A stretch of DNA of 64,000 bases. It comes from Methanosarcina barkeri MS. GTDB taxonomy: Archaea; Halobacteriota; Methanosarcinia; Methanosarcinales; Methanosarcinaceae. A program made the position numbers and the translations under genes. The stretch lies in contig NZ_CP009528.1 of NCBI RefSeq assembly GCF_000970025.1, forward strand, positions 434,001-498,000, written 5' to 3'. The notes beneath the pieces are model-generated. The model searched no databases. It saw only the letters and a program-made list of their open reading frames with translations, and was not told the origin of the DNA. This document shows, in pieces, positions 47,591 to 61,163 of this stretch (the stretch's first letter is position 1; the number at the start of each line of letters is the position of its first letter).

Positions 47591-47594
47591 AGCA

Positions 47595-47737
47595 CTGAAG
47601 TATATCACTGAAGTATATCACTGAAGTATATCACTGAAGTATATCACTGAAGTATATCACTGAAGTATATCACTGAAGTATATCACTGAAGTATATCACT
47701 GAAGTATATCACTGAAGTATATCACTGAAGTATATCA
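47595..47737. repeat. 13-bp tandem repeat (CTGAAGTATATCA), eleven perfect copies
   Basis: Eleven head-to-tail units of 13 bases without a mismatch, so expansion is recent. The array lies in the 3' UTR of the SIMPL gene, before its terminator-like hairpin. Confidence 0.96.
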
Positions 47738-47739
47738 AT

Positions 47740-47781
47740 GATCAGGAGTTGCAGATAAAGGTTATTTGCAACTTCCCGATC
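47740..47781 (+). terminator. Long hairpin downstream of the SIMPL gene
   Basis: GATCAGGAGTTGCA pairs with TGCAACTTCCCGATC (one bulge) around a 13-base loop, followed by AATGCATCTTTTTG. The two repeat arrays separate it from the gene. Confidence 0.55.
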
Positions 47782-53750: not shown

Positions 53751-54248
53751 ATGACGGAAAGACAGGTTGAAAGCGTACTTATAGAGATCCCGAAAGGAAG
53801 CCGGAATAAATATGAATACGATAAAGAGAAAAAAGTGATTAAATACGACCGAATGCTTTTTTCTTCAATGGTATATCCCTCAGACTATGGTTTTTTCCCA
53901 AACACCCTGGCCCTTGACGGTGATCCTTTAGATGCCATGGTTTTAACCTGGGAACCTACATTTCCGGGATGTATAATAGATGTACATCTTGTGGCACTAT
54001 TTGACATGGAAGATGATAAAGGAAGAGATCAAAAAATACTCTGTGTTCCAAAGAATGACCCTATGTGGAATTATATTGAGACAGTTGAGCAGGTTCCACC
54101 TCATCTATTTAAGGAGATTACTAACTTTTTCCAAACTTATAAAAATTTAGAAGAAAAACGCGTGAAGGTTATCGGTTGGAAAGACCTCGAAACAGCAGTC
54201 ACTATACTTCAGGAAGCTAAAGATCGATATATCGAACAAAAGAAATAA
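53751..54248 (+). CDS. ppa: Inorganic pyrophosphatase (soluble, family I)
   Basis: A 165-residue enzyme: VESVLIEIPKGSRNKYEYDK, YDRMLFSSMVYPSDYGFFPN and LDGDPLDAMVL, the DGDPxD metal-binding signature, then GRDQKILCVPKNDP. It hydrolyses pyrophosphate to drive biosynthesis. Length slightly below bacterial hexameric enzymes but complete. Its last 15 bases, including the stop, are duplicated directly behind the gene (GAACAAAAGAAATAA twice). Confidence 0.95.
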   Translation: MTERQVESVLIEIPKGSRNKYEYDKEKKVIKYDRMLFSSMVYPSDYGFFPNTLALDGDPLDAMVLTWEPTFPGCIIDVHLVALFDMEDDKGRDQKILCVPKNDPMWNYIETVEQVPPHLFKEITNFFQTYKNLEEKRVKVIGWKDLETAVTILQEAKDRYIEQKK

Positions 54249-54403
54249 GAACAAAAGAAATAAAATCATCAGTGAGGGCTTAAGCTCTATAATTTGTCCA
54301 GCTAAGTGACCCTTAAAAATTTATTGCTTTTATAGTCTTGCCTATGCCCGGAGACAGATCTTCCTCATTGAGCTTGGTAAAGTCCCACTCTGATTCAACT
54401 ACC

Positions 54404-55243
54404 TCAGCTCCTCTGTCTTTTTGACCACTCTATCCGTCGATCATGAGCCATTTTCAGCAGGAAATCTTCTGCGGCTTCAGATAAATTACAGTATTCATGC
54501 CAAAGCCATCCGCATGGTTGCTCTGGCACTACAATTATTCCTTTTTTATCCGCAACACCCTGAAGGATTATCTGTGCGGCTTCTTCAGCTGGAATTGCAT
54601 CTTCAGGGGCTTTTATCTCTTCATGAACTGGACCCAGTATAGGCTTTTTCCAGATCCGTGAAACGACAGCTGCGGGACATGTAACTGAAAAATGAATGCC
54701 TTCTTCAGCAAATTCGTACCGCATGCTTTCACTCATCCCAACAACTGCATACTTGGTAGCGCAATAAAGAGACTGGAATGGGAAAGGTATCAGTCCTGCA
54801 AGTGAAGCCGTGTTAACAATATGCCCTCCACCCTGAAGACGCATAAATGGCAACGCGGCATTAATTCCGTATATAACGCTCCAGAGATTGACATCAATAA
54901 TAGATCGCCAGTGTTCAAGCGTAGCGTCAACAGTCGGCATCGTACCTCCAATTCCCGCATTATTAAATAGAAAGTCAATTCTACCTTCCGCGGCAACCGT
55001 ATCCTGAATAGCTTTATCCACCTCCGGCTGTTTTGTCACATCAACAAGCAGAATTCGAATCTGTTCGGCATATGAATCAAGAGTCTTAGCCGCTGATTCC
55101 AGACTTTCCGCATTTCGACCAGCCATGAAGACTATTGCTCCCTTTTTCAGAAGCTCTTCACTTATCGCATACCCGATTCCGGAATTTGCACCGGTTACCA
55201 GACAATATTTATCCTTGAAATATTCATCATTCCCCACTTTCAT
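54404..55243 (-). CDS. Short-chain dehydrogenase/reductase (SDR)
   Basis: A 279-residue SDR: TGANSGIGYAISEELLKKGA (NAD(P) loop), NNAGIGG (the NNAG motif), NTASLAG (catalytic Ser region) and LYCATKYAVVG (Tyr-x3-Lys). The C-terminal 40 residues are longer than in the minimal enzyme (EQPCGWLWHEYCNLSEAAED). The substrate is unknown. Its start codon lies inside a 13-bp repeat array (55232-55309), which supplies several alternative ATGs upstream. Confidence 0.88.
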   Translation of the reverse strand: MKVGNDEYFKDKYCLVTGANSGIGYAISEELLKKGAIVFMAGRNAESLESAAKTLDSYAEQIRILLVDVTKQPEVDKAIQDTVAAEGRIDFLFNNAGIGGTMPTVDATLEHWRSIIDVNLWSVIYGINAALPFMRLQGGGHIVNTASLAGLIPFPFQSLYCATKYAVVGMSESMRYEFAEEGIHFSVTCPAAVVSRIWKKPILGPVHEEIKAPEDAIPAEEAAQIILQGVADKKGIIVVPEQPCGWLWHEYCNLSEAAEDFLLKMAHDRRIEWSKRQRS

Positions 55244-55309
55244 TCCCCACTTTCATTCCCCACTTTCATTCCCCACTTTCATTCCCCACTTTCATTCCCC
55301 ACTTTCATT
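55232..55309. repeat. 13-bp tandem repeat (CCCCACTTTCATT), six copies, covering the SDR start codon
   Basis: On the SDR strand each unit reads AATGAAAGTGGGG and so contains an ATG and a weak GTGGGG ribosome-binding sequence. The innermost unit provides the SDR start (55243). Five further repeat ATGs are at 55256, 55269, 55282, 55295 and 55308, plus one at 55315; the first four of these read MKVGNESGE and then stop. Confidence 0.92.
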
Positions 55310-55376
55310 CCCCATTCTACTTTTCACGTTTCTCTTTCGATTGATTCTTTTTGACTTACTTTACTTTATATGAGGG

Positions 55377-55844
55377 TTAAGACTCACACTGCCTAATTAT
55401 CGCCAGAGTAGCTACTACATAGGCAACAGGCCCTGTATAAATCCCCTTGAACAGTGCCACTCTGTTTACAGAAAGCTCCGTGATGTCGAATAAAAAGAAC
55501 ATGGAAATGGTTAAAGTCACCATGACCAATACGGTACAGATGAACAGCACCGTGCCCAGTAATACCCCTCTCCTCGGCAACCTTGACAGTATCGGCCCGG
55601 GCTGGGGCAGGTTTTCATCTTTGAATCGGCCAGCACGAAGTTGACGATTAATATCAGCTGCCGAGAAGACCGCCACAAGCCAGGTCATCACGATTGAAGT
55701 GATTATCGTATCAACCACAATTCCGGATAAGGCAACGGTATCCACGTTCCTGTTGATGAAAAATGCCAGGAGAGGGTTTACCACCATGTTAATCAGGGCG
55801 GCTGCCAGGGCCTGTTTCTGGATATACGAATCTATCGAATCCAA
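55377..55844 (-). CDS. Small membrane protein coupled to the DUF362 gene
   Basis: A 155-residue protein with about four membrane helices (QALAAALINMVVNPLLAFFI, IVVDTIITSIVMTWLVAVFS, GVLLGTVLFICTVLVMVTLT, IYTGPVAYVVATLAIIR). It starts three bases after the DUF362 stop on the same strand, so the two are probably co-expressed. No family recognised. Confidence 0.72.
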   Translation of the reverse strand: MDSIDSYIQKQALAAALINMVVNPLLAFFINRNVDTVALSGIVVDTIITSIVMTWLVAVFSAADINRQLRAGRFKDENLPQPGPILSRLPRRGVLLGTVLFICTVLVMVTLTISMFFLFDITELSVNRVALFKGIYTGPVAYVVATLAIIRQCES

Positions 55845-60938: not shown

Positions 60939-61163
60939 ATGAAGGATCTCTATAACATACTAAATACCGTACTACTAAATACCGTACTACTAAATACCAT
61001 ACTACTAAATACCATACTACTAAATACCATACTACTAAATACCATACTACTAAATACCATACTACTAAATAACATAGGCAAATTTCAAAAAATTACACCT
61101 AAATTTTGCAGTATTGTTGAATGTAAATTATACCTCCGTCATATGGTTCAGCCAAACATATGA
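60939..61163 (+). CDS. Possible small repeat protein (LLNTI pentapeptides)
   Basis: A 74-residue frame, MKDLYNILNTVLLNTVLLNT and onward, with seven to eight LLNT(I/V) units encoded by a 15-bp tandem repeat, then a basic tail. AAGGAG lies five bases before the ATG, an ideal ribosome-binding site, and the AAGGAGATGATATG string occurs twice (60860 and 60928). The 5-residue period would give a hydrophobic helix or solenoid. It could be a real peptide or a repeat artefact in non-coding DNA. Confidence 0.35.
   Translation: MKDLYNILNTVLLNTVLLNTILLNTILLNTILLNTILLNTILLNNIGKFQKITPKFCSIVECKLYLRHMVQPNI
60961..61065. repeat. 15-bp tandem repeat (TAAATACCATACTAC), seven copies
   Basis: Seven near-perfect units, the first two with CCGT instead of CCAT. 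The 15-base period keeps any reading frame. Confidence 0.95.

Follow-up and report, generated by a model that had tools for sequence, protein, structure and literature searches.

A 13-bp minisatellite at the start of a short-chain dehydrogenase/reductase (SDR) gene of Methanosarcina barkeri MS represents, with a probability that we put at about 0.8, a recent slippage expansion of the gene's own initiation region, which would be near-neutral and whose decoy start codons would alter translation of the gene modestly. The origin of the array from the SDR start region is well supported by sequence comparison with related species, slippage being the process that we infer; a regulatory switch is unsupported. 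Near-neutrality is suggested by the absence of the array in relatives, although a new, lineage-specific adaptation would look identical; most likely, a genome prone to repeats has generated the array as a side effect that does no harm. The features of the region are collected in Table 1, where positions refer to the window, i.e. the whole stretch of 64,000 nucleotides that was analysed, unless another sequence is named.

Table 1. Position of the SDR gene, of its start-codon array and associated reading frames, and of a second start-codon array.
Feature	Position	Strand	Description
SDR gene	54404..55243	-	279 aa; opened by ATG 55243 of the last full unit
13-bp minisatellite	55227..55314	-	6.8 perfect copies (Tandem Repeats Finder) of AATGAAAGTGGGG, as read on the minus strand
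uORF0	55292..55315	-	ATG 55315; MGNESGE (7 residues); stop overlaps ATG2 as ATGA
uORF1	55279..55308	-	MKVGNESGE; ATG at the ancestral SDR start position, according to the 5' alignment
uORF2	55266..55295	-	MKVGNESGE; stop overlaps ATG4
uORF3	55253..55282	-	MKVGNESGE; stop overlaps ATG5
uORF4	55240..55269	-	MKVGNESGE; stop TGA 55242-55240 overlaps SDR ATG 55243-55241 (ATGA, 4 nt)
uORF5	55227..55256	-	MKVGNESGE; ends out of frame within the SDR gene, overlaps ATG 55230
Out-of-frame ORF	55195..55230	-	MMNISRINIVW; inside the SDR start; landing site of the odd chain (1-3-5-7)
TATA-like TATAAAG	55364..55370	-	precedes the array by about 50 nt; read from the sequence, putative promoter
Upstream co-directed ORF	55377..55844	-	155 aa; ORF call
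Methyltransferase start-codon array	L123 18530-19411 (G000:C2 ~558530-559411)	-	conserved gene

Analysis with Tandem Repeats Finder revealed a period of 13, with 100% matches and zero indels, over positions 55227-55314. All six matches of AATGAAAGTGGGGAATGA in the genome fall inside this array. Searches for the unit junction retrieved no second site in the genome, in the other genomes of a genus sample of 31, composed of one genome per species, or in viral contigs; the array is therefore locus-specific and not dispersed, which rules out a dispersed repeat or a mobile element. As a perfect tandem repeat of 88 bp, unmatched elsewhere in the 31 genus genomes, it is beyond chance. An assembly artefact was judged unlikely, the array being only 88 bp long and the genome being assembled in two contigs, i.e. 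a chromosome of 4,533,209 bases and a second contig of 41,698 bases. A repeat coding on the plus strand was also considered, and the corresponding ORF (55125-55373) merely overlaps the SDR start in antisense orientation. As a side observation, a piece of the second contig matches an M. barkeri 227 plasmid, with 100% identity over 77% of the query.

Each unit is composed of a purine-rich GGGGA tract, followed by ATG AAA and by a GTG in frame. The original prediction described a 13-bp array with a start codon in each unit, and an ATG is indeed found on the minus strand in every full unit, at positions 55308, 55295, 55282, 55269, 55256 and 55243, with a GTG sharing its frame two codons further on. 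The five upstream units (ATGs 55308-55256) open the nine-residue peptide and terminate at a TGA two units later, as predicted, and the nearest of these uORFs (ATG 55256) stops within the SDR gene as foreseen, at 55229-55227, out of frame. The statement that the last ATG opens the SDR is correct in that the ATG at 55243, in the last full unit, opens the gene, but needs amending, as two out-of-frame ATGs, at 55230 and 55227, come after it; the SDR could instead start at the in-frame GTG at 55237.

Besides the in-frame GTG, features that had not been anticipated include an additional ATG at 55315 and the overlap of stops and starts. All uORF stops in the array, including that of uORF4 at the SDR start, overlap a start as ATGA, where the start codon runs into the AAA codon. 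Two interleaved chains result, ATG0-2-4-SDR, headed by uORF0, and ATG1-3-5-7, which lands out of frame. The ATG of uORF0 is missing from the aligned relatives, which carry AAGGGGG or a similar sequence in its place. Since the unit holds ATGA and the period of 13 equals 1 modulo 3, such a ladder is produced unless an earlier stop intervenes, and about 60% of random ATGA-containing 13-bp units place the stop identically. The regularity of the ladder is therefore no evidence of selection, and a design by selection was rejected on this basis; regular ladders of uORFs can emerge from arithmetic alone, which calls for caution.

The array is present in 1 of the 31 genus genomes, while the start region is single-copy, consisting of GGGGGAATGAAAATGGGGGTTGA or a sequence near it, in all six aligned relatives. 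In G014 this region reads GAAAAGGAGAAGGGGGAATGAAAATGGGGGTTGACGAGTATTTC; those of G030, G006, G013, UBA9310 and UBA8098 resemble it, and their flanks align with the window. The distance between shared anchors is 114 nt in the window, compared to 49 nt in G014, G030 and G006 and 48 nt in UBA9310. The excess over the 49-nt relatives is 65 nt, i.e. 5 x 13, or exactly five units. The single-copy regions of the relatives contain the motif GGGGnnTGA twice, at a spacing of 13 nt and across the start codon, and this imperfect direct repeat is the likely seed of slippage. The start itself varies among the relatives, codon 1 being ATG or GTG and codon 3 ATG or ATA; in UBA9310 a 1-nt deletion throws the first GTG out of frame, and the ATG at codon 3 remains.

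According to this comparison, the ancestral start region would have carried the imperfect repeat across its start codon, and five further 13-bp units would have been gained in this lineage by replication slippage. The upstream copies of the unit would be leftover starts, with the last unit retaining the SDR frame, and comparison with the single-copy relatives would thus show how an imperfect repeat that already surrounded a start codon gave birth to a minisatellite. An array at this position is tolerated because each unit brings its own start codon, which keeps the gene in frame at any copy number.

The SDR protein matches the Pfam family adh_short (PF00106, E=1.6e-50) and carries the motifs of classical SDRs, namely the cofactor motif TGxxxGIG (TGANSGIG), NNAG and the active site YxxxK (YCATK). 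None of the 25 NCBIfam matches listed was a model above its cut-off, and PDB and NCBIfam searches returned general SDR relatives, with no substrate indicated. Orthologues, 85-94% identical, are present in a minority of the genus, and dN/dS against relatives is about 0.08-0.12; the protein is therefore under constraint by purifying selection, though members of the genus can do without the gene. The G006 orthologue has an internal TGA, and partial or stop-bearing matches only were obtained in G004, G020 and G028 (L004, L007, L008, L009), a pattern that suggests decay of the gene in several species of the genus. At 54234-54263 of the window, two copies of a 15-bp repeat, GAACAAAAGAAATAA, are located at the stop codon of an inorganic pyrophosphatase gene (53751-54248), the unit encoding the C-terminal EQKK and the stop. 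G030 carries 3.0 copies at the matching place (L003 2480-2524); copy number thus differs between relatives, and the pyrophosphatase frame is again unaffected.

The SDR array is probably contained within the transcript, because the TATA-like element and the upstream ORF precede it and because methanogens usually have leadered mRNAs, with 5' UTRs (PMC3600222). A similar TATA-like element, AATATAAAAG, is found at the corresponding place in G013. The upstream ORF has no Pfam or NCBIfam match; the sequence of its end also precedes the SDR in several relatives, and read-through transcription is therefore possible. The same observations argue against an inert leader, in which translation of the SDR would use the last copy alone, with its ATG at 55243 or its GTG at 55237, or transcription would begin within or after the array, the uORFs being unused. 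This alternative is unlikely, though it deserves consideration: SD-like pairing is weak in each unit, which favours it, but the local context of the last copy is the same as that of the upstream copies and offers no reason for exclusive use. Pairing of the unit with the anti-SD was evaluated at -4.7 to -5.8 kcal/mol, weaker than that of the relatives' leaders (-6.2 to -11.2 kcal/mol), and SDR expression may therefore really differ; the sequence GGATCACCTCCT, the expected 16S 3' end, was found three times in the genome.

If the array is an expansion of the initiation region in which the leftover starts are used, ribosomes starting at copies 0, 2 or 4 could reach the SDR via termination-reinitiation, those starting at copies 1, 3 or 5 would finish out of frame, and some would start directly at the last copy. 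The net effect, which presupposes translation of the uORFs and reinitiation, would be a modest alteration of SDR translation, and not its switching. ATGA overlaps are known to couple translation in the archaeon Haloferax volcanii and in E. coli (Huber et al. 2019, PMC6728339; 2023, PMC10666635). Coupling requires an overlap or a very short distance, and 15 nt of the upstream gene sufficed in E. coli (PMC10666635). The uORF4/SDR junction shares with these pairs the 4-nt overlap of stop and start; its upstream frames, however, are 9-codon products of repeat expansion, and not genes, and coupling is putative. Translation boosters, in which a synthetic short upstream 'nonsense' ORF is provided with a strong RBS, have been described in E. 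coli (PMC13255528). They similarly rely on a short, meaningless ORF ending beside the start of the target gene, but they are designed, whereas the uORFs of the array are natural, tandem and preceded by weak SD-like pairing.

The regular GGGG runs on the mRNA strand raise the alternative that an RNA (or DNA) G-quadruplex hinders SDR translation and may destabilise the array. When quadruplex energies are included in the folding model (ViennaRNA), the predicted MFE of the array with its flanks changes from -12.6 to -30.2 kcal/mol, while that of the single-copy G014 leader is unchanged. The G4Hunter score of the array, 1.38, exceeds the threshold of 1.2 used for archaea, but about 97% of the predicted archaeal sites share this low score class, 1.2-1.4 (PMC7565180), and the predicted loops, of 9 nt, are long. 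Units containing GGGG are also rare, being found in only 2 of 111 arrays sampled from the genome, which speaks for the quadruplex; on balance, this explanation appears improbable.

The number of uORFs depends on the copy number of the unit, as the original prediction held, and this is a fact of the sequence. The prediction went further and proposed a tuning switch of translation; as an evolved trait, it would let copy number set uORF number and thereby SDR output, giving heritable variation under selection. The uORFs and the ATGA overlaps on which it would act are present, and, under reinitiation, an odd or even copy number changes the chain that reaches the SDR. Such tuning is nevertheless unsupported, and we consider it highly improbable: the array is private to a single genome of the sample and the relatives have a single start, the ladder is automatic at period 13, no change of frame is possible, and tens of satellites per Mb, located mostly outside the longer ORFs checked, form the background of this genome. 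A switch by parity is likewise highly improbable. In such a switch, an odd or even copy number would decide whether the reinitiation chain that begins at the favoured first start arrives at the start codon of the SDR or ends in another frame; if real, it would provide reversible expression variants without a frameshift of the gene, and the methyltransferase array of Table 1 would be a second site at which copy number changes the starts before a gene.

In phase-variable contingency loci, such as Haemophilus lic1A, the repeat follows the start codon and shifts the frame on and off. Like these loci, the SDR array is repeated in tandem where a gene begins and could affect translation through its copy number; it differs from them in that its unit holds the start codon. 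The SDR frame was computed to be opened by the ATG of the last unit at every copy number from 1 to 12 units. Because the start codon lies in the unit, no change in copy number alters the frame, and switching on and off by frame does not occur. What could vary with copy number is the count of decoy starts and which of the two ATGA chains, odd or even, reaches the SDR.

Satellites are abundant in Methanosarcina: a survey reports 1908 of them in nine species, and 71.7 per Mb in NZ_CP009528, at a genome size of 4.57 Mb (PMC6749651). The SDR array is, like them, a head-to-tail array with a unit shorter than 30 nt in a Methanosarcina genome; as far as the satellites are described there, it differs in containing the start codon of a gene and in deriving from the initiation region of that same gene. 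Translation is not mentioned in the main text of the survey, whose supplementary list may include the SDR array itself. Literature searches on start-codon tandem repeats and on Methanosarcina TSS and uORF work yielded nothing on arrays of this kind. Our own scan, which covered 2.06 Mb (about 45% of the genome), detected 111 strict arrays, defined by a period of 7-40, at least 4 copies and at least 95% match, corresponding to 53.8 per Mb.

The ORF scan listed 13 arrays overlapping a start, including that of the SDR, most of them associated with spurious-looking ORFs or with genes that probably start later. A second start-codon array, made up of about 12 units of 17 bp similar to AAAAATGGATAAATCGC, extends into the initiation codon of a methyltransferase-like gene, where relatives carry one or two diverged copies; the formation of start-codon arrays therefore recurs. 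With two of them in about 45% of one genome, the satellite-rich Methanosarcina may offer a natural system in which to study how archaeal ribosomes reinitiate on tiny uORFs. Two other sites are possible start-codon arrays: a 19-bp array at L057 11867-11934 reaches the start of a protease-like ORF, nearly 700 aa long, and a 16-bp array at L125 4371-4435 reaches that of an ORF of about 275 aa. Within the window, two more near-perfect arrays are located outside ORFs of at least 120 aa, at 47593-47741 (13 bp x 11.5) and 60958-61076 (15 bp x 7.9).
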